Position numbers and translations under genes: made by a program
Notes under the pieces: generated by a model
The model's database searches: none
What the model was told of the DNA's origin: nothing
Seen by the model: only the letters and a program-made list of their open reading frames with translations
Shown here: positions 51,113-64,000 of the stretch, piece after piece
How positions within the stretch are numbered: position 1 is the first letter of the stretch
How the letters are laid out: each line of letters begins with the position of its first letter
Source of the DNA: Algoriphagus pacificus
Lineage (GTDB): Bacteria > Bacteroidota > Bacteroidia > Cytophagales > Cyclobacteriaceae
Reading direction: 5' to 3'
Length of the DNA stretch: 64,000 nucleotides
Assembly: GCF_017254845.1 (NCBI RefSeq)
Contig: NZ_JAFKCU010000003.1
Location: 558,001-622,000 of the forward strand

Positions 51113-52507
51113 ATGAAATCAAAAAGCTTGGTATTCCGAGACATAGAATGGTGGATTGTCACAATAGTTTTTTTAGTTATTGTCTTGACTAACATCACCG
51201 TAGGAATAAACCACCATCAGGTTGATAAATTTTTCGGAAATGTTTTCATGCCTATTGCAATTTACCTTGGGTTTTACGTGGTGCATTTGGTCATTATCCC
51301 CAAATATTTAAAGGACAGAAACGTCCTCCATTTGGTTTTGTATAGCATTCTCACCCTGGCAATCACAGGAGCAATTTCTGGGGCCTGCGCCGCAGTACTT
51401 CGGATCAGACCAGAAAGGTATTTCAGTTTTTTCTTTAGCATGATAGCACTTTACCCTGGGTATTTGCTGACCTCAATTTTGCTAAAAAAGATGCTTTACC
51501 CTCCTGCTTTTAGGGATTTTCAACTCTACAACGGAGCAAGATTATTTACAATTTTCCTTTTCGTTTCAGTTTTCTTAATCTCATCTCAACTATTTGTAAA
51601 TGAGGGAGTTTTCATCATTCTGTTTATCATTATTCCGGCGATTTTATTCTTCTTCATCTACAATTACTTTTTGCTTTACCGCAATAAATTAGCAGGAAAA
51701 ATCAAGGCCTATCGATGGTTTTTATGGGGCTTAATCGTGATTATCTCATTCATTTTCCTGATTATTTCACTTGATACTAATACTCCTGAAGTTCTATTGC
51801 TTGGAGTTGGATTGATTCTCTTATTGATGTTTGTGATTTTCCCGCTTTCCGATTTGATTTTCAAAAAATACGAGGATTATATCGGTAAAATCGACACCCT
51901 ATCTGTTCAGGTGAATCAGAGTTCAGCCAACCTGAGTTTCCTTAGATCTCAAATCAACCCACATTTCCTATTCAATGCCTTGAATACACTTTATGGAGCG
52001 GCACTCTTAGAAAATGCGGAAAAGACCTCAGATGGTATCCAAAAGCTTGGAGATATGATGCGCTTTATGCTGCATGAAAATCAGATGGATAAAATCCCAC
52101 TTTCTCGTGAAATCGACTACCTAAGAAATTACCTGGACCTTCAAATGCTTCGCTTTGCAAAGGAAGATCATCTGGATGTATCGATAAATATCAGTGAGGA
52201 GTTTTGTCAAGGAGATATTTCCCCGATGCTTTTGATTCCATTTGTAGAGAATGCATTCAAACATGGCATTAGCACCAAGAGTAAATCTTGGATCAAAATT
52301 AACCTGAGATGCCTGAAAGGTTCTGTTCATTTGGATGTAGTCAATAGCATTCACCCTAAAAAGGCCAGTGAAGACCCAAGGGATGAATCTGGAATTGGTT
52401 TGGAAAATGTAAAAAGTAGATTGGAACATTTCTACCCTCAGAAACATAGTCTGACCATTGTAGCCAATGACACAGAGCATTTTGTCCACTTCTCAGTACA
52501 GATTTAA
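51113..52507 (+). CDS. LytS-type sensor histidine kinase, multi-pass membrane form
   Basis: Sensor kinase of 464 residues without a large periplasmic domain. Seven or eight hydrophobic segments occupy about residues 12-245, then a short linker and the His_kinase domain with His284 in INPHFLFNALNT, followed by the ATPase part with VENAFKHG and the C-terminal SGIGLENVKSRL. The signal is probably sensed in the membrane or through a partner lipoprotein. The gene for the propeller lipoprotein starts one base after its stop. Confidence 0.88.
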   Translation: MKSKSLVFRDIEWWIVTIVFLVIVLTNITVGINHHQVDKFFGNVFMPIAIYLGFYVVHLVIIPKYLKDRNVLHLVLYSILTLAITGAISGACAAVLRIRPERYFSFFFSMIALYPGYLLTSILLKKMLYPPAFRDFQLYNGARLFTIFLFVSVFLISSQLFVNEGVFIILFIIIPAILFFFIYNYFLLYRNKLAGKIKAYRWFLWGLIVIISFIFLIISLDTNTPEVLLLGVGLILLLMFVIFPLSDLIFKKYEDYIGKIDTLSVQVNQSSANLSFLRSQINPHFLFNALNTLYGAALLENAEKTSDGIQKLGDMMRFMLHENQMDKIPLSREIDYLRNYLDLQMLRFAKEDHLDVSINISEEFCQGDISPMLLIPFVENAFKHGISTKSKSWIKINLRCLKGSVHLDVVNSIHPKKASEDPRDESGIGLENVKSRLEHFYPQKHSLTIVANDTEHFVHFSVQI

Positions 52508-52508
52508 T

Positions 52509-53633
52509 ATGAATTTTCGCTTAATCCTTTCCTTTTTTTGCCTAGTAACCTTGATACAATGCACATCTAAAGTCACAGAAGAGAATAATGAAATCCCTCT
52601 TTTCACTTTGGAAGTGGACAAAGCTGAATTGATAAACTATGACCAACTAGTTAACAACAAGTCCTATATCCTGCTAAGCACCGACGAAAATGCGGTGTTT
52701 AGCAGAGTGGACAAATTAGTGGCAGCCAATAATCAATTCTACCTATTTGATGCATTATCTACTGAAGGAATCCTTGTATTTGATAATCAGGGTGCATTTT
52801 TAAGGAAAATCGGAGAATTTGGGGACGGGCCGGAATTATTAAATAGCATCAGTGATTTTCAAGTCAATGAATCCGGGGAGGTAATGGTACATGACCGTGG
52901 TTCAAAATCCATTTTTATTTATGATTCCAAAGGTGCTTTAGAGGAGGTCTTGGAAGTTCCTTTTCTGGCTAGTTCATTTTCTAAAACACCCAATGGCTGG
53001 ATTTTTTCCATCAATGTAGAAAACCAGAATGAGTCCATGGGGAATCCGAAAGTTTCAGTCACGAATGATTCTCTAGAGCTGCAAAATTCCTTTTTTAAGT
53101 ATCATCCCAATGCTTCAAACATCTATTTTACTGCTGGACATCTATCGAAAAGCCAGGATCAGATATCATACTTCAGGGCAATTGATGACACTGTAAGTTT
53201 ATTCAATAAGCAAGGAGAGCTTTTGAAACGATTTAAGCTCGATTTTGGAAGTAAAAATTTACCTCAAGAAGCTTTGCTTGACATGTCTAAAATGGACAAA
53301 AGTCAACATTACAGATATATAGCTCAATCCCTGACATTAATAGGAAACCGACTTTTTGGATTTATCACTTCCACAAAGACTGATGGAGGTATTTTGATGA
53401 TTGATTTAAAATCAAATAAGTTATTTCGGCAGGATGTAGACTACAGTGATTTTACCTTTTCAAACCTTCTCTATCCTTCGGCTAATCTTCAAGATGAAGC
53501 TTTGATTTCCTATTTGGATCCAGTTACTTTTAGCCAGGATTCCGAACCGGAGAATTATCCTGAGGATGTTCGTGAACATTTAGAAAATGAAGGATCTGTA
53601 CTGATAATACATCATTTAAAACCTGTTCAATGA
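52509..53633 (+). CDS. Six-bladed beta-propeller lipoprotein
   Basis: Exported lipoprotein of 374 residues, ATG at 52509 and signal ending LIQC. The rest has repeating blade motifs (VDKLVAANNQFYLFD, GILVFDNQGAFLRKIGEFGDGP, ISDFQVNESGEVMVHD, IFIYDSKGALEEVLEV), typical of the NHL-like six-bladed propellers frequent in Bacteroidota. Its position between kinase and regulator, with 1-nt spacing before and a 4-nt overlap after, suggests it is part of the signalling unit, for example a ligand-binding partner of the kinase; this is inference. Confidence 0.85.
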   Translation: MNFRLILSFFCLVTLIQCTSKVTEENNEIPLFTLEVDKAELINYDQLVNNKSYILLSTDENAVFSRVDKLVAANNQFYLFDALSTEGILVFDNQGAFLRKIGEFGDGPELLNSISDFQVNESGEVMVHDRGSKSIFIYDSKGALEEVLEVPFLASSFSKTPNGWIFSINVENQNESMGNPKVSVTNDSLELQNSFFKYHPNASNIYFTAGHLSKSQDQISYFRAIDDTVSLFNKQGELLKRFKLDFGSKNLPQEALLDMSKMDKSQHYRYIAQSLTLIGNRLFGFITSTKTDGGILMIDLKSNKLFRQDVDYSDFTFSNLLYPSANLQDEALISYLDPVTFSQDSEPENYPEDVREHLENEGSVLIIHHLKPVQ

Positions 53634-54307
53634 TCAAAGCAATAGCGATTGACGATGAAAAAATGGCTTTGGAAGTGATTAAAGCACACGCTTCCAAAGT
53701 CCCCTTTTTACACTTGGAAGAAGTTTTTACCGACGCCATCCAAGGACTGGAGTATATAAAAAACAACGAAATCGACTTGATATTTCTCGATATCAATATG
53801 CCTGATATCTCAGGAATTGACTTTGCAGGATTGCTTCCCAAACAGACCTTGGTCGTTTTTACCACAGCTTATTCAGACTATGCGGTCAAAGGTTTTGAAC
53901 TCGATGCATTGGATTATTTACTCAAGCCCTTTAACCTCAGCAGATTTATCAAAGCTTGCCAAAAAGCTCAGGAGTGGCTGGAGTTGCAACCTGGCAAAGA
54001 GCCTGAGTTTACTTTCATCAAGACCGGTGAAGGTCAGATTCGATTGGTTTTCGACCAACTCCTATTTTGTGAAGCAAGTGGGAATTATGTGACTTTTCAG
54101 CTGGAGTCGGAAAAAATTATGAGCAGAATGACTTTGGCAGAAGTAGAAAACCTACTCCCCTCCTTTTTTATCAAAACCCATCGTTCCTTTCTGGTAAATA
54201 GTCAAAAGGTCAGCAAAGTTGAAAAACATCAGTTGCACCTAAATCAAAAATTTGTTCCTGTGAGCCTATCTTATGTTGATCAGGTGATGGAGCATTTCCA
54301 AGCTTAA
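53630..54307 (+). CDS. LytTR-family response regulator
   Basis: A 225-residue response regulator: DD at residues 8-9, phospho-accepting Asp54 in FLDINMP, Lys99 in LLKPFN, and a C-terminal LytTR domain (about 130-225) with FIKTHRSFLVNSQKVSKVE. Its ATG overlaps the propeller stop by 4 nt. It is the partner of the kinase at 51113-52507. The direct repeat at 50852-50882 is its best operator candidate, so the operon may regulate itself. Its stop and that of the convergent AraC gene share a TTAA palindrome. Confidence 0.93.
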   Translation: MIKAIAIDDEKMALEVIKAHASKVPFLHLEEVFTDAIQGLEYIKNNEIDLIFLDINMPDISGIDFAGLLPKQTLVVFTTAYSDYAVKGFELDALDYLLKPFNLSRFIKACQKAQEWLELQPGKEPEFTFIKTGEGQIRLVFDQLLFCEASGNYVTFQLESEKIMSRMTLAEVENLLPSFFIKTHRSFLVNSQKVSKVEKHQLHLNQKFVPVSLSYVDQVMEHFQA

Positions 54308-55185
54308 GAATTGCCAAAGCTCTCCAAATATTCCTTTCTATAATTCAGAGGTGTAGTTCCGATCCTGTCTTTAAACTGTTTATTGAAGTTGGAAAGGGTA
54401 TTAAAGCCACTTTCATAGCAGACTTCAGAGATGTTGATTCCTTCTTCGTGAAGAAGCTTACATGCATGACTTATCCGCACGTCGCAGATGAAATCCGAAA
54501 AGGATTTATTGGCTCTGGATTTAAAAAATCGGCTAAAAGCACTCACAGACAAATTAGCCAAAGCAGCCACCTCTTCCAGCATAATTTTATCCTTGTAGTT
54601 TTTCATCACATATTCATACACCTCTCCCATTCGGTCTTTTTCAGACTCTTTGTTGAGGTTAATGTATTCTGCATTCGTGATCGGGTTGATATCTTTTGAA
54701 TGCGCCAAGTAATTCAGGATTTCCAAAAGCAGGATCAGTTGGGAAGTACCTCTCAGGTGAACCAGCTTTTTCATCATTGCGGTGATTTCCTGATTACTCT
54801 TGCCTGTCACTTCCAATCCTCTTGCGGAAGCTTTCATCAAACGTCCGATATCTTCAAATTCCTCTTTATCAAAAATCCCTTCGCCAAGGAAATTCTCCGG
54901 AAAGTAGACAACTACCAAATGTGTTTCCAATCCATTTGCAGGATCAAAGTAGGCATTGTCAGATCTCCAGACATGAGGGAGATTTGGACCGGTCATGACC
55001 ATATCTCCTTCTTTGAAAGGTTTGATATGATCCCCAATGTAGCGGGTTCCCCTACCCTTTAAAATCACGACAAATTGATACTCAGGATGAAAATGCCAGT
55101 TTTTATCAAAATAAGGCGCTATTAACTCCTGAACCACAAATACTTTGGAGTCTGGAATGCGCGATTTTTTGAGTGGAGTCTTCAT
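54304..55185 (-). CDS. AraC-family regulator with cupin sensor
   Basis: A 293-residue transcription factor. The N-terminal cupin (about 15-110: WHFHPEYQFVVILKGRGTRYIGD) should bind a sugar or similar effector; the C-terminal AraC domain (about 190-290) has two helix-turn-helix parts, LEEVAALANLSVSAFSRFFKSR and ISEVCYESGFNTLSNFNKQFKDRIG. It is divergent from the ThuA-propeller-cupredoxin gene and is the likely regulator of that cluster; direct repeats in between could be its site. Confidence 0.92.
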   Translation of the reverse strand: MKTPLKKSRIPDSKVFVVQELIAPYFDKNWHFHPEYQFVVILKGRGTRYIGDHIKPFKEGDMVMTGPNLPHVWRSDNAYFDPANGLETHLVVVYFPENFLGEGIFDKEEFEDIGRLMKASARGLEVTGKSNQEITAMMKKLVHLRGTSQLILLLEILNYLAHSKDINPITNAEYINLNKESEKDRMGEVYEYVMKNYKDKIMLEEVAALANLSVSAFSRFFKSRANKSFSDFICDVRISHACKLLHEEGINISEVCYESGFNTLSNFNKQFKDRIGTTPLNYRKEYLESFGNS

Positions 55186-55237: not shown

Positions 55238-55279
55238 CAAAATTCAGTCAAAATTCAAATCAATACAGTGAGAATTTTG
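55238..55279. promoter_or_regulatory. Candidate AraC-type operator
   Basis: CAAAATTCA occurs twice at 55238-55246 and 55249-55257, 11 bp apart (one helical turn), with an inverted 8-nt match GAATTTTG at 55272-55279. It lies between the divergent AraC gene and the redox lipoprotein gene. The words are AT-rich, so chance is possible. Confidence 0.4.
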
Positions 55280-55355
55280 AGAAATTTATGTAGAATATTG
55301 GTATGCAATTGATACATAAACCCATTTTATGAGAATTTCCATTAAAATCCCCCCC

Positions 55356-58300
55356 ATGAAACTTTCCTGGTTAGTGACCTCTTTGGTCATTTCCCTGCTT
55401 GTAATAAGCTGCGGAAAAAAATCCGGTGAGACATTTTTGTCTTCCACCGAACCTAGACGTGTTGAAATACTAGTATTAGGTCATGAAAGCGAGCATCACA
55501 ATTCTGAGAAATTGATGATGTATCTCGAAACTCCCCTTTTCCAAAAGGGAATCAACCTGACATATACTACAGATGTCAACGATCTTAACCCTACAAAATT
55601 GAGTAATTACGATGGTTTGATGATTTATGCAAACCATGAACAAATTACTCCAGAGCAGGAAACTGCGCTGAAAGATTATGTACAAGGTGGTAAAGCATTG
55701 ATTCCGATTCACTCGGCTTCTTTCTGCTTCCAGAACTCTCCTTGGTACATTTCTGCTGTTGGTGGCCAGTTCAAAAGCCATGGCACTGGTGATTTCACCG
55801 TGGACATTGTTGATCAAGATTCTCCTATCATGGATGGAATCAGCGAGTTTGAAACTTGGGATGAAACTTATGTTCATAGCCAGCTAAATCCTGACATGCA
55901 TGTATTGATGGAGCGAGTGGATGGCGATCACAAAGAACCATACACTTGGACCCGTGAAGAAGGTGACGGTAGAGTATTCTATACTGCTTATGGTCATAAT
56001 GAGAAAACTTGGGAAAAAGAAGAATTTCAGGAATTGGTTGCAAACGGAATTCTTTGGGCAGTTGGTGAGAAAGTAAATGAGCTTTTGGCTGAATACAACA
56101 TCCCAACTCCTCAGTTTGAAGATGCTGAGATTCCTAACTACGAAAGAAGAGATCCAGCACCAAGATTCCAGTTGCCATTGTCTCCTGAAGAGTCAATGAA
56201 ATTAGTTCAGGTGCCTGTAGGTTTTGAATTGGAGCTATTTGCTTCTGAGCCAATGATCATTAACCCAATAGCTTTTGCATGGGATGAAAGAGGTAGATTA
56301 TTTGTCATCGAGACAACCGATTATCCTAATGAAGTTCGTAAAGAAGGTGGCGATGATAAAATCAAAATTTTGGAAGATACCGACGGCGATGGCAAAGCTG
56401 ATAAAGTAACTGTTTTCGCAGAAGGCTTAAATATCCCAACTTCAATCATGGCAGTTAATGGCGGTATGTTGATCTCCATGGCTCCAGATTTTGTTTTCCT
56501 AAAAGATACTGACGGTGATGATGTTGCCGATGTGAAAGAAGTGGTAATGACTGGTTGGGGTAAATTTGATACCCACGCAGGTCCTTCCAACTTAAAATAT
56601 GGCTTTGACAATAAAGTTTGGGGAGTATTAGGTTACTCTGGCTTCAATGGTGAAGTGAGTGGTAAAAAATACAATTTCGGTCAAGGTGTTTACAGATTTG
56701 ATCCTTCTGGCGAAAACATGGAATTCCTAGGTCGTACAAGTAATAACACTTGGGGTCTTGGTTTCTCTGAAGACTTTGAAACATTTATCTCTACTGCCAA
56801 CGGTCAGCATTCAGTGTATTTGGCTTTGGATAATAAGTTCGTAAAAAGAACTATCTATAAAGGTACTCCGAACACAGCAACTGGAATTGATTCACACTAT
56901 GACATGCCTCATTTGACTCCTTTCTTGAGACAGGTTGACTGGCATGGGTCTTACACTGCTGCTGCAGGACATAACCTTTATACTGCAAGAAGTTTCCCTT
57001 CTGAATATTGGAACAAAATGGCTTTCGTAGCCGAGCCAACAGGACGTGTTCTTCACAATGCAAGATTATTGGAAGAAGGTTCTGGCTATAAAGAGAAAAA
57101 TGCATTTAACATTTTGGCCAGTTCTGATGAGTGGTTTAGCCCGGTTCATGCTGAAGTTGGTCCTGATGGATCTCTTTGGGTAGCTGACTGGTACAACTTC
57201 ATTATTCAGCACAATCCTACTCCTCGTGGTTTTGAAAACGGAGAAGGAAATGCTTACATCAACCCAATGAGGGATAAGGAGCATGGTAGAATCTATCGAT
57301 TGACTTACAAAGGTGGTGAGCCTTCCGAAACTTACGACTTGAAAGATGCTTCAGCTAGTGAATTACTGGAAGCAATGAAGAGCGATAACATGTTCTGGAG
57401 ACTTACGGCTCAGCGATTGATCGTGGAAACTCAGAACAAAGAAGTTGTAGAAGGTCTCTATGAATTGATCAATTCTCCTGAGGTAGATGGAGCTGGAATC
57501 AATGGACCTGCGATCAATGCACTTTGGACTTTGAAAGGTCTAGGTGAATTAGAAGGTAATAATGCCAAAGCTCAGGAAGTGGTTGAAAAAGCATTGAGCC
57601 ATCCTTCTGCTGCTGTTAGAAAAAATGCGGTTCGCGTGATTCCTCGTAATCAATCTGCATTGAATGCAATTATTGCAGCTAATATGATGGAAGATGATAA
57701 TCTTCAGGCTAGAAAATTTGCAATCCTAGCAGTTTCTGAAATGCCAACAAGTGATGATGTTTCTAAGAAGCTTTTGGCTATCTCTGAAGATCAGGACAAT
57801 GCCAAAGATGAGTACTTGCCTCAGGCGATTTTTGCTGCAGCTTTGACTCACCCTAGTGCATTTGAAAACAGACCTGCAGCTCCTTCTTCAGAAGCGCAGC
57901 CTGATTCTTTGATGGGTGTAGCTGATAGAATATCTAAAAGCTTGATTTCTGAGCTTTACACATTGAATCCTAGAAATGCCCTCCTTTTCCCACCAGATCC
58001 ATCTGGAAAAGAAATCACGATTTCTATGGAGGTAACTCCTGGTAGAGATCCTTTGGATGGTGTGATGGTTGCTCAAGGAAATAGTGTCAATGGCTACAGC
58101 TTATATGTTTATAAGGATGCATTGAGCTTTGCAGTTGCTCAGGATAGCGATGTAAAAATCATCAGAACTAAGAAACTTCCTTCTGAGAAGTTTATGGTAA
58201 CTGCCACCTTGAAAGAAGATGGATCAATGAGCTTGCAAATCGACGGTAATGAAGTAGCGAAAGGAAAAACCAAGGGATTGTTTGCTGCTCCACTTTCACC

Positions 58301-58835
58301 TGAAAATGTAAGAGTAGGTCAATTTGACTCTGGAAATAAAGTAGGTGATTACGAAGGAAACTGGAGATTCAACGGTAGAATCGGAAATGATTCAAGTCTT
58401 GACTTGAAGAAAGTTGATGGTGCTGAAAACAGTGCTATTGCTTCCATAGAAGTTGTTGAAGACGGAATGATCACATTGACTGCTGTTCCTCATGAAATGA
58501 GATTTGACAAGTCAGTCTTTGCAGTAAATGCAGGAAGCCAGTTGATTTTGGACTTTAAAAACCCAGATTTCGTACAGCACAATCTGATTATCGGAACTAT
58601 CGGTTCATTGGAGAAAATAGGTCAGGCAGCAGATCAAATGGCTAAAAACCTGACAGGAATGGACTTGGCTTTTGTTCCAAATATTCCTGAAGTGATCGCC
58701 TCTACCGAGTTGGTTTTCCCTAATTATTCGGATTCTATTGTGATCAATGTACCTTCCCAAAAAGGTGATTATCCATTCGTTTGTACTCTTCCTGATCACT
58801 GGAAGCAGATGAACGGTATCATGAAAGTAATCTAA
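55356..58835 (+). CDS. ThuA / PVC-type dehydrogenase propeller / HEAT / LamG / cupredoxin lipoprotein
   Basis: Exported lipoprotein of 1159 residues (signal ending LLVISC; an in-frame ATG lies 27 nt upstream). Domains in order: ThuA-like (about 35-240, EILVLGHESEHHN...HSASFCF); PVC-type glucose/sorbosone dehydrogenase-like propeller (about 280-655) with calcium-type loops DTDGDGKADK and DTDGDDVADV; HEAT repeats (about 655-800); LamG-like (about 880-1025); azurin-type cupredoxin (about 1050-1159) with ligands His1075, Cys1143, His1148 and Met1152 in CTLPDHWKQM, the same spacing as azurin. Probably oxidises a sugar or cyclitol and hands electrons to the copper site. Confidence 0.85.
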   Translation: MKLSWLVTSLVISLLVISCGKKSGETFLSSTEPRRVEILVLGHESEHHNSEKLMMYLETPLFQKGINLTYTTDVNDLNPTKLSNYDGLMIYANHEQITPEQETALKDYVQGGKALIPIHSASFCFQNSPWYISAVGGQFKSHGTGDFTVDIVDQDSPIMDGISEFETWDETYVHSQLNPDMHVLMERVDGDHKEPYTWTREEGDGRVFYTAYGHNEKTWEKEEFQELVANGILWAVGEKVNELLAEYNIPTPQFEDAEIPNYERRDPAPRFQLPLSPEESMKLVQVPVGFELELFASEPMIINPIAFAWDERGRLFVIETTDYPNEVRKEGGDDKIKILEDTDGDGKADKVTVFAEGLNIPTSIMAVNGGMLISMAPDFVFLKDTDGDDVADVKEVVMTGWGKFDTHAGPSNLKYGFDNKVWGVLGYSGFNGEVSGKKYNFGQGVYRFDPSGENMEFLGRTSNNTWGLGFSEDFETFISTANGQHSVYLALDNKFVKRTIYKGTPNTATGIDSHYDMPHLTPFLRQVDWHGSYTAAAGHNLYTARSFPSEYWNKMAFVAEPTGRVLHNARLLEEGSGYKEKNAFNILASSDEWFSPVHAEVGPDGSLWVADWYNFIIQHNPTPRGFENGEGNAYINPMRDKEHGRIYRLTYKGGEPSETYDLKDASASELLEAMKSDNMFWRLTAQRLIVETQNKEVVEGLYELINSPEVDGAGINGPAINALWTLKGLGELEGNNAKAQEVVEKALSHPSAAVRKNAVRVIPRNQSALNAIIAANMMEDDNLQARKFAILAVSEMPTSDDVSKKLLAISEDQDNAKDEYLPQAIFAAALTHPSAFENRPAAPSSEAQPDSLMGVADRISKSLISELYTLNPRNALLFPPDPSGKEITISMEVTPGRDPLDGVMVAQGNSVNGYSLYVYKDALSFAVAQDSDVKIIRTKKLPSEKFMVTATLKEDGSMSLQIDGNEVAKGKTKGLFAAPLSPENVRVGQFDSGNKVGDYEGNWRFNGRIGNDSSLDLKKVDGAENSAIASIEVVEDGMITLTAVPHEMRFDKSVFAVNAGSQLILDFKNPDFVQHNLIIGTIGSLEKIGQAADQMAKNLTGMDLAFVPNIPEVIASTELVFPNYSDSIVINVPSQKGDYPFVCTLPDHWKQMNGIMKVI

Positions 58836-58841
58836 GGAAGG

Positions 58842-59705
58842 ATGTCATTAGAAGTAAAATTTGGGGTAAGTACCTGGTTATGGACTTCCCCTTTTAATAA
58901 AGAAACAGTAAACCTATTTCCTAAGATCAAGGAATTTGGCTATGATTTCGTCGAAATCCCAGTTGAAGATCCTGCATTGATCGATATTCAAGGAGTGAAA
59001 ACTGCTTTAGCGGATAATGGCCTCAAGGCTGTTATCTGCGGAGCATTTGGTACTAGCAGAGACCTCACAAATGAGGATCCTAGTTTCCACAAAACCAGTT
59101 TCGATTACCTAAACAGTTGCTTTGAAATCGCAGCTGCTTTGGACTGCAAATTTGTGGCTGGCCCTATGTATTCAGCTGTAGGCAAGGCAAGATTGGTTTC
59201 ACCAGAGCAGAAAAAAATCGAATGGGATCGTGCAGTAACCAATCTGCGGATCGTCTGTAATAATGCAAGAAAATTCGGTTTGGAAATAGCTTTAGAAACT
59301 TTAAACCGTTTTGAAACAGACTTGATTAATACCTGTGAGGAATTGATGCAACTGATCTCAGACATCAATGAACCTGAAGCAAAGGTGATTTTGGATGGTT
59401 TTCATATGAGTATTGAAGAACCGGATCCGGAAGCAGCCATCAAACTGGCAGGAGATAAATTGATTCATTTTCAAGTATCGGAAAACTATAGAGGTACGCC
59501 CGGAACAGGACAAACACCTTGGGCTGCTTATAAAAGAGGATTGGAAGCTGTCAATTACAAAGGAGTGATTTCTATCGAAAGCTTTACTCCTGAAGTAAAA
59601 GAATTGGCAGGTGCAGTCTGCATTTGGAAACCCCTGGCCCCAAGTCAGGATAGTTTTGCCAGCGAAGGATTGAAATTTTTAAAAAAATGGGCTTCTGAAG
59701 CCTGA
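58842..59705 (+). CDS. TIM-barrel sugar isomerase/epimerase, tagatose 3-epimerase-like
   Basis: Cytoplasmic xylose-isomerase-like TIM barrel, 287 residues. Metal ligands expected for the D-tagatose/psicose 3-epimerase family are visible: Glu in ALETLNRFE, Asp and His in ILDGFHMSIEE, His in HFQVSENYRG and Glu in SIESFTPE; the RGTPGTGQ loop is also typical. It may epimerise a ketose or, as some relatives, cleave a 3-keto sugar. It follows the redox lipoprotein by 6 nt and precedes the Gfo/Idh gene by 29 nt, so all are one operon. Confidence 0.87.
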   Translation: MSLEVKFGVSTWLWTSPFNKETVNLFPKIKEFGYDFVEIPVEDPALIDIQGVKTALADNGLKAVICGAFGTSRDLTNEDPSFHKTSFDYLNSCFEIAAALDCKFVAGPMYSAVGKARLVSPEQKKIEWDRAVTNLRIVCNNARKFGLEIALETLNRFETDLINTCEELMQLISDINEPEAKVILDGFHMSIEEPDPEAAIKLAGDKLIHFQVSENYRGTPGTGQTPWAAYKRGLEAVNYKGVISIESFTPEVKELAGAVCIWKPLAPSQDSFASEGLKFLKKWASEA

Positions 59706-59734
59706 GTAACCCAAATACCCATACCAATATAATT

Positions 59735-60847
59735 ATGAGTGATAAGAAATTTAACATTGCTATTATCGGCCTAGGCTTTGGAGCCGAATTCATCCCGATT
59801 TATCAAAAGCATAAGCTGGCAAATATGTATGCCATCTGCCAGAGAAATAAAGAAAAGGCTGAGGAGATTGGAAAAGCTTTTGGGATAGATAAAGTTTATA
59901 CGGATTACGATGAGTTATTGAAAGATCCAGACATCGATGCGGTTCATATCAATACTCCGATCCAAAACCATGCGGAGCAGTCCCTAAAGGCGCTTAGAGC
60001 TGGTAAACATGTTGCTTGTACCGTTCCAATGGCGACAACCGTTGAAGAATGTAAGGCAATCGTTGAGGAAGTTCAACGTACTGGATTGACTTACATGATG
60101 ATGGAAACGGTAATTTATAGCCGTGAATTCCTCTTTGTAAAAGAAATGTATGAAAAAGGAGAGTTGGGTAAGATCCAATTCTTAAGAGCTTCTCACCAGC
60201 AGGAAATGGCAGGATGGCCAGGCTATTGGGAAGGCCTCCCTCCTATGCATTATGCTACTCATTGCGTAGGTCCTGTTTTGGCTTTGCCTAAAGCACAAGC
60301 TGAATATGTTTCTTGTCTTGGTTCAGGTAGAATCGATGAAAATTTAATCCCAAAATACGGTTCTCCTTTTGCAATTGAGACTTGCCATATCAAATTCAAG
60401 GATTCTGATTTGGCGGCTGAAGTGACTAGATCTCTCTTCAATACAGCAAGACAATACAGAGAAAGCTTTGATGTCTATGGTTCTAAGAAGTCTTTCGAAT
60501 GGACTTTGATCGAACATGAGGATTCAGTTATTCATACAGGCGAAAGCCCTGAAAGAGTAAAAATCCCTGATTATGCGCATTTGCTTCCTGAGGAAATCGC
60601 ATCTTTCACCACAGCCGGTGTTTATGATGGTGATGACAACCAGCATTTATCCTTCATTCAGGGATCAGGACATGGTGGATCTCACCCTCACTTGGTCAAT
60701 GAGTTCCTAAATGCCTTGGCAGAAGAAAGAGCTCCTTATCCTGATGCTAAGCAGTCAGCCAACATCACCTGTGTAGGTATTCTGGCTCATGAGTCTGCGA
60801 TGGCTGGAGGTAAGATCATTAATCTACCTGATTTCACGCTGAGCTAA
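59735..60847 (+). CDS. Gfo/Idh/MocA-family oxidoreductase lacking the EKP lysine
   Basis: A 370-residue cytoplasmic member of the family with the Rossmann motif IGLGFGAEF (about 11-19) and VHINTPIQNHAEQSLKALRAGKH. The position that is normally EKPxA reads CTVPMATT, so the conserved Lys is Val. The C-terminal domain has SLFNTARQYRESFDVYGSKKSFEW and HGGSHPHLVNEF, the latter typical of glycosidase-like or cyclitol-related members. Reaction uncertain: an altered dehydrogenase, or a NAD-dependent lyase or isomerase. Last gene before the hairpin at 60860. Confidence 0.86.
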   Translation: MSDKKFNIAIIGLGFGAEFIPIYQKHKLANMYAICQRNKEKAEEIGKAFGIDKVYTDYDELLKDPDIDAVHINTPIQNHAEQSLKALRAGKHVACTVPMATTVEECKAIVEEVQRTGLTYMMMETVIYSREFLFVKEMYEKGELGKIQFLRASHQQEMAGWPGYWEGLPPMHYATHCVGPVLALPKAQAEYVSCLGSGRIDENLIPKYGSPFAIETCHIKFKDSDLAAEVTRSLFNTARQYRESFDVYGSKKSFEWTLIEHEDSVIHTGESPERVKIPDYAHLLPEEIASFTTAGVYDGDDNQHLSFIQGSGHGGSHPHLVNEFLNALAEERAPYPDAKQSANITCVGILAHESAMAGGKIINLPDFTLS

Positions 60848-60859
60848 GAAATAACTTTT

Positions 60860-60895
60860 AAATGGGAAATAGGTTGTATATACTATTTCCCATTT
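60860..60895 (+). terminator. Hairpin after the Gfo/Idh gene
   Basis: AAATGGGAAATAG (60860-60872) pairs perfectly with CTATTTCCCATTT (60883-60895), 10-nt loop. There is no strong T-run, so it may be a weak terminator or attenuator before the cytochrome gene. Confidence 0.65.
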
Positions 60896-60986
60896 ATCAG
60901 AAAATCTGTTGATAAGTATAAATAATCCAAAAAATAGAGGGGAGTTTATTCAACTTCACAGATCGAATACTAATCCAATTAATAGA

Positions 60987-61433
60987 ATGAAAATTACAAT
61001 CTTATCAAAGTCAGCATTTGTTCTCCTTGCTGCGCTTTTATTTGCCTGTGGTACTGAAAATAAAGAAGAGAAGGCAGTAGTAGAAAAAGAACCTGTTGAA
61101 GTTAAGGAGACGCCGGCACCCGTGGCTGAGCCAGTAGAAGAACAGGTAAAAGAAGAAGTAATCAGTGATGCCAGTAAAACCATGTCAGGTGAAGACAAGA
61201 TCGGAAATTCAGATTGTCTTTCCTGCCATATGAAAGAGAGACAAGTTGTTGGACCTGCTTTCTTGGATATCGCAGCTGAATATGAAAACAACGATGCTAA
61301 CGTAGCAAAACTTGCTGCTAAGGTAATTCAAGGTGGAGCTGGAGTCTGGGGTGAGGCAGCCATGCCACCACATCCATCACTAAGTGAAGAAGATGCCAAG
61401 GATATGGTAAGATATATTTTGGGTTTAAGCTAA
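60987..61433 (+). CDS. Small lipoprotein cytochrome c
   Basis: Periplasmic, membrane-tethered class I cytochrome c of 148 residues. The ATG at 60987 opens a lipoprotein signal ending LLFAC (Cys21). A flexible Glu/Pro/Val-rich linker (about 25-65) works as a tether, then the heme site CLSCH (Cys77, Cys80, His81) and the Met ligand in AAMPPHP (Met126). It resembles cytochrome c551/c552. It probably accepts electrons from the cupredoxin lipoprotein or from the enzyme encoded after 62759. Confidence 0.92.
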   Translation: MKITILSKSAFVLLAALLFACGTENKEEKAVVEKEPVEVKETPAPVAEPVEEQVKEEVISDASKTMSGEDKIGNSDCLSCHMKERQVVGPAFLDIAAEYENNDANVAKLAAKVIQGGAGVWGEAAMPPHPSLSEEDAKDMVRYILGLS

Positions 61434-61450: not shown

Positions 61451-61487
61451 AAAAAAAAGAGGCAGTTTTTACTGCCTCTTTTTTTAT
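61451..61487. terminator. Bidirectional terminator after the cytochrome gene
   Basis: AGAGGCAGT (61458-61466) pairs with ACTGCCTCT (61471-61479) round a TTTT loop, with eight A before and seven T after. Its T-run overlaps the stop of the convergent small gene. Confidence 0.92.
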
Positions 61488-61858
61488 TTTACTTTGGTTC
61501 CAACCGCATCAAACATGCCCATCAGATCACCTTTGGCTGTTTCATCATCCACTTTTTTCAGATAAAGTGTCACATCATAGCCACTGATAGTAAAAGCGGC
61601 ATTCAAAGCATCCTCTGAAATTTTGACAGAAGTCATTTTGGATTCCTCTTGGGCTCCTTCTTCCATAAAATATCCAGTAGTGACATCTCCCACTGTTTCA
61701 AATCTCATAGGAATTGTAGCACTACCTTGAGGAGTGTCTTTGATCAAGACAGCCCATTTTCCTTCGAAATATGCTGGACTAGGAGCCTGCGTGGCAAAAG
61801 CTATACTAAAGATAAAAAGTATGGCAAAAGTGCTCAGGATTGATTTTCTTGTTTTCAT
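61484..61858 (-). CDS. Hypothetical secreted protein
   Basis: A 124-residue exported protein with a clear signal peptide ending near AFATQ. The mature part is a small beta protein (YFEGKWAVLIKDTPQGSATIPMRFE, TSVKISEDALNAAFTISGYDVTLYLK), perhaps a lipocalin-like or META-like fold. No family is recognised. Convergent with the cytochrome gene and divergent from the SGNH gene; its presence inside the redox cluster may be chance. Confidence 0.7.
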   Translation of the reverse strand: MKTRKSILSTFAILFIFSIAFATQAPSPAYFEGKWAVLIKDTPQGSATIPMRFETVGDVTTGYFMEEGAQEESKMTSVKISEDALNAAFTISGYDVTLYLKKVDDETAKGDLMGMFDAVGTKVK

Positions 61859-62758: not shown

Positions 62759-64000
62759 TTATCTAGCATACAAGGTCAAACTTCTCATTGACCAGGGCTT
62801 CTCCCCTTTTTCTGTGCTTTGAATTCTAATAAATCTGACTTCATCAGGAGATTTCCATCGTGCATTATTCAATCCCGCATGACCGGTTTCTTTGGCTACT
62901 TCAGTCCAGCTATTGCCGTCTTTTGAAATTGAAACCGTATAGCCCAATGGGAATTCTTCTTTTCCTGCATTGAATTGAATTTCGGCAAGCTGATGATCAT
63001 CCGGTAATTCTACTTGGTACCACATACCCGGCTCCTGAGATTCCTCTGTTTTCCAACCTTTGTAGCCAAATGCATAAGAAGGATCCCGAGTTGATCCCAC
63101 TCCTTGCAACGCAGTGCTACTTGCAGTTGCTATCCAATTATCCTGAGGCGCTAAAGCTTTAGGCACTTCTTGAATCAATTCATCAAAGCTATAATTTGAA
63201 TCTCTGTCTTTTGTTTCTTCTCTGATTTGGGCCACATATTCTGGATATACAAAACTTCCTTCGTTCCCAAATTCATTTCTGATATAAGATAAGACTGAAG
63301 CGATATACTCATCGTCATTCATGTTCATCGCAATCATGACACCTTCATACTCTTTTCCTTCCAAATCACCTGTTAGGCCATGCAAAAGGGTTTTGACGGC
63401 ATATTCAGGATGTCCTTGGATTCGCTGAGAACCCGAAAATGCTGGAGCTATCAATCCATCTCCAGCTGGAGATCCTAAGCCTTTTGGTCCATGACAGGTA
63501 GAGCAATAACTATCGAAAATGGATTTACCTTTTGTAAACAAGGCTAATTCTACAGGAGCGTATTTTACGGAAGCTACTTTTTTAGCCTCATCAATTTTCT
63601 CCAAAATCTGGGTGGAAACCAATTGAACTCCTTGGGCTTGATTTGCTGCCAAAGTTGATTTCATCAAATCTTCCACTTGCTCAATCTTCAAAATATAAGC
63701 ACTGAATAAAGCTTGAATCGCGACATTCGGATCAGATGACTTGGCCATTTCTTTATAATCAGCGGCCAAACTCTTTTCACCGTATTTATAGAGCGTCTCG
63801 CTGGCTTTCAAGGCTTGTATCTGAATGTTTGGATTGGAATCTTTCAATAGCTCTCTAACAAGGCTTAAATCCAAAGAATTCAACCCTTCCAAAGTCCAAA
63901 GCGCATGAATTCTGGCCAATTCATTCTTTGAAGTTTTAGCCATTTTCTCCAATTCTCCCACAATCGATTTATCCTGATTCAGGATCATGATCTGTTGTGC
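62759..64000 (-). CDS. HEAT / cytochrome c / discoidin protein, 5' part outside window
   Basis: The frame is open to the right edge (four codons beyond the ATG at 63988), so the true start is outside. The visible 413 residues hold HEAT-like helices (about 1-140), a cytochrome c domain with the heme site CSTCHGPKG near residue 175 and possible Met ligand in MNMNDDEY, and a C-terminal F5/8-type (discoidin) carbohydrate-binding domain (about 270-413, ending RSLTLYAR). This is the tail of a PVC-type dehydrogenase-like protein; the missing N-terminus probably holds the propeller. Related to the 55356 product but with heme in place of copper. Confidence 0.85.
   Translation of the reverse strand, partial: AQQIMILNQDKSIVGELEKMAKTSKNELARIHALWTLEGLNSLDLSLVRELLKDSNPNIQIQALKASETLYKYGEKSLAADYKEMAKSSDPNVAIQALFSAYILKIEQVEDLMKSTLAANQAQGVQLVSTQILEKIDEAKKVASVKYAPVELALFTKGKSIFDSYCSTCHGPKGLGSPAGDGLIAPAFSGSQRIQGHPEYAVKTLLHGLTGDLEGKEYEGVMIAMNMNDDEYIASVLSYIRNEFGNEGSFVYPEYVAQIREETKDRDSNYSFDELIQEVPKALAPQDNWIATASSTALQGVGSTRDPSYAFGYKGWKTEESQEPGMWYQVELPDDHQLAEIQFNAGKEEFPLGYTVSISKDGNSWTEVAKETGHAGLNNARWKSPDEVRFIRIQSTEKGEKPWSMRSLTLYAR

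Follow-up and report, generated by a model that had tools for sequence, protein, structure and literature searches.

A conserved module of three genes, found in many Bacteroidota, is described here from a stretch of 64,000 nucleotides of Algoriphagus pacificus (NZ_JAFKCU010000003.1, positions 558,001-622,000, forward strand). This whole stretch is referred to as the window, and coordinates are positions within it. The module consists of a large lipoprotein, a TIM-barrel protein and a Gfo/Idh/MocA protein (Gfo/Idh) that has lost the catalytic lysine of its family, and it stands beside a divergent AraC-cupin regulator. To judge from the genomes, the gene set appears to be widely shared but unstudied; no literature on it was found among open-licence papers, which is not proof of absence. 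We propose, with about an even chance of being right, that AraC controls a pathway for a saccharide or a related polyol and that this operon encodes one arm of it. In this pathway, oxidation would occur in the periplasm, electrons would exit through a cupredoxin, and the product would be finished in the cytoplasm. The observations behind this proposal were obtained with computational tools, and consist of domains, folds, conservation of ligands and motifs, gene linkage, co-occurrence and an operator.

Conservation and linkage of the module

All the genes are open reading frames (ORFs) where the first-pass annotation of this DNA had placed them, and their families are now assigned by Pfam and NCBIfam. 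The lipoprotein gene is followed after 6 bp by the TIM-barrel gene, and this after 29 bp by the Gfo/Idh gene, an operon-like arrangement. The wider set of loci comprises the best 80 loci of a scan of named genomes, with Gfo/Idh identity of 70-98%. Counts of ORFs cover 79 of them, as locus L139 was left out by the ORF filter owing to a longer ORF on the opposite strand. The 80 loci come from Algoriphagus, Cyclobacterium, Mucilaginibacter, Pedobacter, Segetibacter, Chitinophaga, Muricauda, Runella and others, and include two metagenome-assembled genomes labelled Planctomycetaceae and Planctomycetota.

An ORF fusing the propeller and azurin-type domains of the lipoprotein lies at most 7 kb from the Gfo/Idh gene in 69 of the 79 loci. 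The remaining 10 are split (L096 and L142, the azurin ORF of the latter losing its copper motif before its end in this assembly), cut by a contig end (L083), equipped with a heme-c propeller only (L105, L116, L117, L141), or devoid of either a propeller-azurin or a heme-c propeller gene (L115, L145, L152). An intact fused lipoprotein ORF of more than 900 amino acids (aa), with ThuA, propeller and azurin-type domains, defines a subset of 66 loci. In all 66, this gene lies on the same strand as the Gfo/Idh gene and within 7 kb of it, and the linkage is therefore beyond chance. The order is lipoprotein, TIM barrel, Gfo/Idh in 48 loci and TIM barrel, Gfo/Idh, lipoprotein in 10, while in 8 the lipoprotein is near Gfo/Idh with no TIM-barrel match.

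Within the genus, a full-length orthologue of the lipoprotein (67-100% identity) is present in 33 of 36 genomes, its own included, with one further partial copy, and the three genes are consecutive in 14 of 14 loci read over 17-19 kb. At family level, 55 of 148 genomes, from 30 of 84 genera, encode the Gfo/Idh (E 1e-90, paralogues included). Of 395 genomes of the phylum, 24 encode the Gfo/Idh and 26 the lipoprotein (E 1e-150); the Gfo/Idh always co-occurs with the lipoprotein (24/24), the two being far apart or on other contigs in 5 of these genomes. The first-pass annotation had named a lack of synteny outside one species as grounds for giving up its interpretation, and the linkage of the three genes in many Bacteroidota answers this.

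The three proteins, their regulator and a second operon

The lipoprotein is 1168 aa long from the ATG at 55329, or 1159 aa from the ATG at 55356. It had been annotated with ThuA, propeller, HEAT, LamG and azurin-type domains. The ThuA domain (residues 47-244, E 2e-40) and the propeller (285-661; DUF7133, E 5e-119; TIGR02604, E 2e-72, 245 bits against a cut-off of 122.2) are above cut-off, and the azurin-type domain (1047-1167) is recognized by sequence and fold, whereas HEAT and LamG stay below cut-off by profile. The AlphaFold2 model, with a mean predicted local distance difference test score of 86.6, shows a helical repeat at the HEAT-like place (676-846) and a beta-sandwich at the LamG place (about 874-1028). 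Structure predictions used sequences chosen for diversity, 49 for the lipoprotein and 43 for the Gfo/Idh. For LamG, Pfam gives a sub-cut-off LamG_3 match alone, the match in this region is missing in 24 of the 66 fused lipoproteins, and CARDB occupies the region in three outgroup proteins. These results rule out the LamG-like domain as an essential part or as a hidden DUF1080, and it is dispensable.

The type-1 copper ligands, His and Cys-x4-His-x3-Met, are found by pattern in 65 of the 66 fused lipoproteins (L095 reads LHN), and a CxxCH heme site in none of the 66. The azurin-type domain is thus a predicted type-1 copper site of the electron-transfer type, and because of this the earlier term "copper-dependent enzyme" is too strong. 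In its propeller and HEAT domain, the lipoprotein is like the PVC-type heme-binding CxxCH proteins (TIGR02604/DUF7133, PF23500), but where those carry the CxxCH heme domain it has the azurin-type copper domain, and it has an added N-terminal ThuA domain as well. The fold and ligands of the copper domain are common to auracyanin and azurin; yet it is part of a large lipoprotein and not a small free carrier, and it scores 24.8 bits against the azurin cut-off of 105.1. By fold, the propeller is like that of the pyrroloquinoline quinone (PQQ) sugar dehydrogenases (GSDH, PF07995; AA12), but the lipoprotein has no PF07995 match (hmmscan, E 0.01) and is absent from the 8 PF07995 matches of the genome.

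The TIM barrel, previously termed tagatose-epimerase-like, does resemble the psicose/tagatose 3-epimerases most, and its best matches in the PDB are ketose 3-epimerases. With the NCBIfam model of D-psicose 3-epimerase, it scores 173.4 bits, under the cut-off of 300. Glu152, Asp185 and Glu246 are conserved in 28 of 28 sequences and His209 in 26 of 28; we take these four residues to be the metal site of ketose 3-epimerases. The Ycj cluster of E. coli also contains an epimerase, the 3-keto-D-glucoside 4-epimerase YcjR, with Gfo/Idh enzymes, and is thereby similar to the TIM-barrel and Gfo/Idh pair, with PDB 6wn6 matching the TIM barrel at E 4e-16. However, YcjR is more distant from the TIM barrel than the ketose 3-epimerases are, and we know of no extracytoplasmic oxidase in the Ycj cluster.

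The Gfo/Idh had been called odd, and its EKP motif indeed reads TVP. The catalytic lysine is lost in 80 of 80 loci, with CTVP standing for EKP (79/79 ORFs, and L139 read directly, where GHGG is present too); in a 33-protein alignment, the lysine is kept by all but one of the window genome's 29 other Gfo/Idh ORFs. Six residues, His176, His313, His154, Glu124, Tyr128 and Tyr241, are invariant (43/43). The NAD-dependent alpha-N-acetylgalactosaminidases of glycoside hydrolase family 109 (GH109) are the best structural matches, and they too are without the EKP lysine. In alignments, His313 of the GGHGG loop, which reads [SA]GHGGS, and His176 of the x-T-H-x-x-G-P motif, the equivalent of His259, match GH109. 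The loss of the EKP lysine, together with these GH109-type histidines, makes it unlikely that the Gfo/Idh is an ordinary dehydrogenase.

It is nevertheless distinct from GH109. The equivalent of Tyr226 is not present, His154 standing there in 43/43; there is no signal peptide; Gln-Arg replaces Asp after strand 2; and by profile an EKP protein scores slightly higher. In a tree bearing on descent shared with GH109 rather than with other Gfo/Idh proteins, built without five short or low-scoring Gfo/Idh ORFs, the Gfo/Idh is sister to L180 with support of 98/98, and this grouping is lost without the active-site columns. The 33-protein alignment shifts the T-H motif of L180 by three columns, and that position was taken from other alignments. 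Membership in GH109 was not adopted: the two have a signature in common, but Tyr226 is absent here and the placement in the tree hangs on active-site columns.

The AraC-cupin regulator has HTH_18 and Cupin_2 domains above cut-off and, as annotated earlier, diverges from the lipoprotein gene; it does so in 13 of 14 genus loci, and lies at most 600 bp away in 37 of the 66 wider loci. Alignment of the intergenic regions between the two genes exposed a conserved site. The sequence AAAANNCAGTC occurs in 27 of 38 such regions, which account for 27 of its 37 occurrences on both strands of those loci (736 kb), and it is found upstream of the TIM-barrel gene in 6 of the 10 loci with the TIM barrel, Gfo/Idh, lipoprotein order and in L142. 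The half-site pattern matches 6 times in the window genome, versus 4 times for a reversed control; a single half is therefore not specific, and it was dropped as a marker. The only other copy with both halves in this genome lies 104 bp upstream of a SusC gene. In 22 further genomes, the bipartite pattern gives 12 matches in 11 genomes versus 2 for the reversed control. Nine of the 12 precede the lipoprotein gene, and the other 3 (G028, G024, G021) are 59-97 bp upstream of where the orthologous SusC gene is called to start; both halves precede this gene in four genomes.

The AraC regulator probably binds the bipartite site. Because this operator is common to both operons in four genomes, a regulon of two operons is predicted, comprising the lipoprotein operon and the SusCD operon. 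The second operon (G000:C1:1129703 onward; L206:704-13551) is orthologous in L219-L221, and encodes SusC, SusD, an FG-GAP/UnbV protein, an FGE-sulfatase-like protein, an EKP-type Gfo/Idh, a TIM barrel and a BNR protein. Judged by eye, its Gfo/Idh and TIM barrel have twin-arginine-like N-termini. This regulon is the strongest new lead, as it would place an importer and, outside the cytoplasm, a second redox/isomerase pair under a single regulator.

Proposed pathway and rival explanations

From these observations we infer the reactions, the cofactor of the propeller, the direction of electron flow, the localization and the order of steps. The SusCD pair of the second operon would carry the substrate across the outer membrane, and the propeller of the lipoprotein would oxidize a hydroxyl to a ketone in the periplasm, with the ThuA domain acting on the same or the oxidized substrate. 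The fused type-1 copper domain would take up the electrons and deliver them to respiratory carriers, including cytochrome c where present. The exported Gfo/Idh and TIM barrel of the second operon would act in the periplasm too. The keto product would then enter the cytoplasm, in other species through an operon-encoded MFS permease; an MFS gene, whose protein has weak similarity to a fucose symporter, stands in 12 loci between the lipoprotein or heme-propeller gene and the TIM-barrel or Gfo/Idh gene. The metal-dependent TIM barrel would epimerize next to the ketone, and it fits a keto-sugar product because ketose 3-epimerases act adjacent to a ketone. Finally, the lysine-less Gfo/Idh with bound NAD(P) would perform a GH109-like redox/elimination step at C3, cleaving or reducing the product.

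The LacABC/DUF1080 pathway, ThuAB, the chemistry of GH109 and a lactose-hydrolysing TIGR02604 protein may serve as precedents for this chain. Keto intermediates are also said to occur in glycan breakdown by gut bacteria. The LacABC/DUF1080 3-ketoglycoside pathway of Caulobacter and Pedobacter is similar in its periplasmic sugar oxidation, its respiratory electron outlet, and the epimerase and reductase genes nearby (PMC9007349). In contrast, the dehydrogenase here is unrelated, copper takes the place of cytochrome c, and the window cluster has no DUF1080 (no PF06439 match in eight window proteins at E 0.01). ThuAB is reported to yield 3-keto derivatives of trehalose and maltitol (PMC6515357).

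Several points weigh against the proposed pathway. No activity is known for it. Most of the co-occurring lipoprotein matches in the phylum stop near residue 845, so the phylum co-occurrence covers ThuA and the propeller and not the azurin part. The window genome is without a close MFS homologue (best 36% over 182 residues), and the strict bipartite operator pattern was not found in 11 of the 22 genomes searched. In structure comparison, soluble PQQ glucose dehydrogenase scores 23.8, level with lactonase and DFPase propellers, and hhalign of the propeller with two GSDH proteins of the genome gives probabilities of 2.9 and 0.6%, an alignment too weak to place a catalytic residue. The PqqE matches of the window genome, PqqE being the one such protein examined, reach 57 and 53 bits where the cut-off is 381, a further difference from PQQ sugar dehydrogenases. 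PQQ is thus not obviously made by the cell, and its synthesis is not supported; import or another cofactor is possible.

A more specific version is offered tentatively, with a chance well below even. This would be an undescribed Bacteroidota pathway, with a SusCD-fed periplasmic dehydrogenase in which heme c is swapped for blue copper, plus a lysine-less Gfo/Idh completing GH109-type redox/elimination intracellularly on a pre-oxidized substrate. If true, the one-site chemistry of GH109 would be split over two compartments with the respiratory chain harvesting the electrons. The pathway proposed first would be a new variant of keto-sugar catabolism: the families and the style of chemistry are known; the electron outlet, the enzyme variant and the regulon we have not seen described. 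Genomes of this kind contain many DUF7133/TIGR02604 propellers (PF23500 matches 9 times here, twice in one ORF), and the module narrows the field: one propeller clade now comes with constant partners, a specified electron acceptor, a regulator whose operator can be read and an importer in the outer membrane. With these defined, the substrate should be findable through induction and growth tests. The module would also show copper taking heme's place in passing electrons out of a sugar oxidase, as well as a subfamily of Gfo/Idh proteins without the hallmark lysine outside the known glycosidase families.

It is rather unlikely that the lipoprotein is instead a periplasmic oxidoreductive glycosidase, in which the propeller and ThuA would split a glycoside, the copper would remove or tune electrons and the inner enzymes would handle the sugar. 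One enzymatic report on the DUF7133/TIGR02604 family was found among open-licence papers: purified Lac161_ORF7 (TIGR02604-HEAT-cytochrome c) hydrolysed lactose with a Km of 1.8 mM (PMC5342196). Because this propeller-heme relative hydrolysed lactose, a glycosidase role fits as well, which counts as one more point against oxidation; the GH109-type residues of the partner Gfo/Idh and the DUF1080 gene beside the Gfo/Idh gene in L105 also agree with it. However, Lac161_ORF7 has heme instead of copper and, as described, no ThuA domain (PMC5342196), and pure hydrolysis would not need a type-1 copper domain conserved in 69 of 79 loci.

Action of the module on a free polyol or cyclitol, through oxidation to a ketose or inosose, epimerization by the TIM barrel and reduction by the Gfo/Idh, is distinctly unlikely. 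The nearness of the TIM barrel to ketose 3-epimerases favours it, as does inositol 2-dehydrogenase as the best NCBIfam match, far under cut-off, of both the Gfo/Idh and its exported counterpart. But the predicted regulon includes a SusCD importer, a type typical of larger glycans, and the GH109-like residues suggest a glycoside or a 2-substituted pyranose. It is improbable that the Gfo/Idh is a non-catalytic sensor or scaffold in a shorter pathway: its lost lysine and its stronger conservation than its partners (85% identity in G039 versus 51% for the lipoprotein) would suit such a role, but its invariant residues, with three histidines aligned to catalytic positions of GH109, are as expected of an active site.

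Feature positions, cytochrome c and neighbouring genes

Table 1. Positions of the operon genes, the regulator and associated sites in the window.
Feature	Position	Strand	Basis
AraC-cupin regulator	54304-55185	-	HTH_18 E 1e-19; Cupin_2 above cut-off
Bipartite operator-like site, CAAAATTCAGTCA ... ACAGTGAGAA, 21 bp between half-sites	55238-55274	+	Intergenic conservation
Lipoprotein gene	55329-58835	+	Pfam/NCBIfam, AlphaFold2 model and fold match
TIM barrel, ketose 3-epimerase-like	58842-59705	+	AP_endonuc_2 E 2e-37; PDB matches
Lysine-less Gfo/Idh/MocA protein, GH109-like active-site residues	59735-60847	+	Pfam; motif counts; alignments
Perfect 14-bp inverted repeat between the Gfo/Idh and cytochrome c genes; not a classic terminator	60859-60896	strand-neutral	
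Lipoprotein-like cytochrome c, likely start ATG 60989	60909-61433	+	Cytochrom_C E 9e-7; one CxxCH
Terminator-like hairpin 3' of the cytochrome c gene	61452-61485	+	15-bp stem with T-tract

Terminator-like sites in the region number 6, versus a shuffle mean of 6.1, and sigma-70-like promoter counts are at the level of shuffled sequence. The Bacteroidota -33/-7 promoter pattern has a single match in the window, located elsewhere and below chance expectation, and was set aside.

The first-pass annotation had included the cytochrome c in the system as its electron acceptor. The protein is present with one CxxCH, but it lies outside the conserved unit: its gene is downstream of the module in 7 of 79 loci (the L091 copy 589 bp away) and in 4 of 14 genus loci. 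These counts rule it out as a core partner, and it is an accessory to the module. The earlier interpretation is partly supported.

A heme-c version of the propeller is encoded 1.3 kb from the operon end, at 62759-64000 (-). This is an 896-aa DUF7133-HEAT-cytochrome c-F5/8C protein, whose start lies beyond the window (full gene L054:10760-13450), and 6 of 14 genus loci have a similar gene close to the operon.

Related clusters were seen at other loci. The paralogous clusters L058-L060 contain a very long regulator-like ORF (1357-1376 aa or longer), a lipoprotein without the azurin part, a Gfo/Idh (~50%) and a TIM barrel, with a separate cupredoxin gene in L059 and L060 and GH43 in L060; they are perhaps a sister pathway, maybe for a plant sugar. 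At L115:3186-11444, the Gfo/Idh and MFS genes are beside genes for xylose isomerase and an FGGY kinase (best match xylulokinase, sub-cut-off), and a regulator with AraC-type and sugar-binding-like parts is encoded as well. Both L058-L060 and L115 hint at plant sugars, and were not counted as evidence on the substrate of the window operon. At L105:6469-15478, the Gfo/Idh gene is beside genes for DUF1080 (3-keto-disaccharide hydrolase), DUF6807 and a heme-c propeller, and this locus is a direct bridge to the 3-ketoglycoside pathway.

Downstream of the operon, the gene at 61484-61858 (-) codes for a protein of 124 aa whose N-terminus is signal-like. Neither Pfam nor NCBIfam gives a match for this protein, which is found downstream of the operon in many genus loci. 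Upstream, at 51113-54307, are a histidine kinase, a 6-bladed-propeller-like lipoprotein and a LytTR regulator, and the histidine kinase and LytTR genes keep this upstream place in most of the 14 genus loci.

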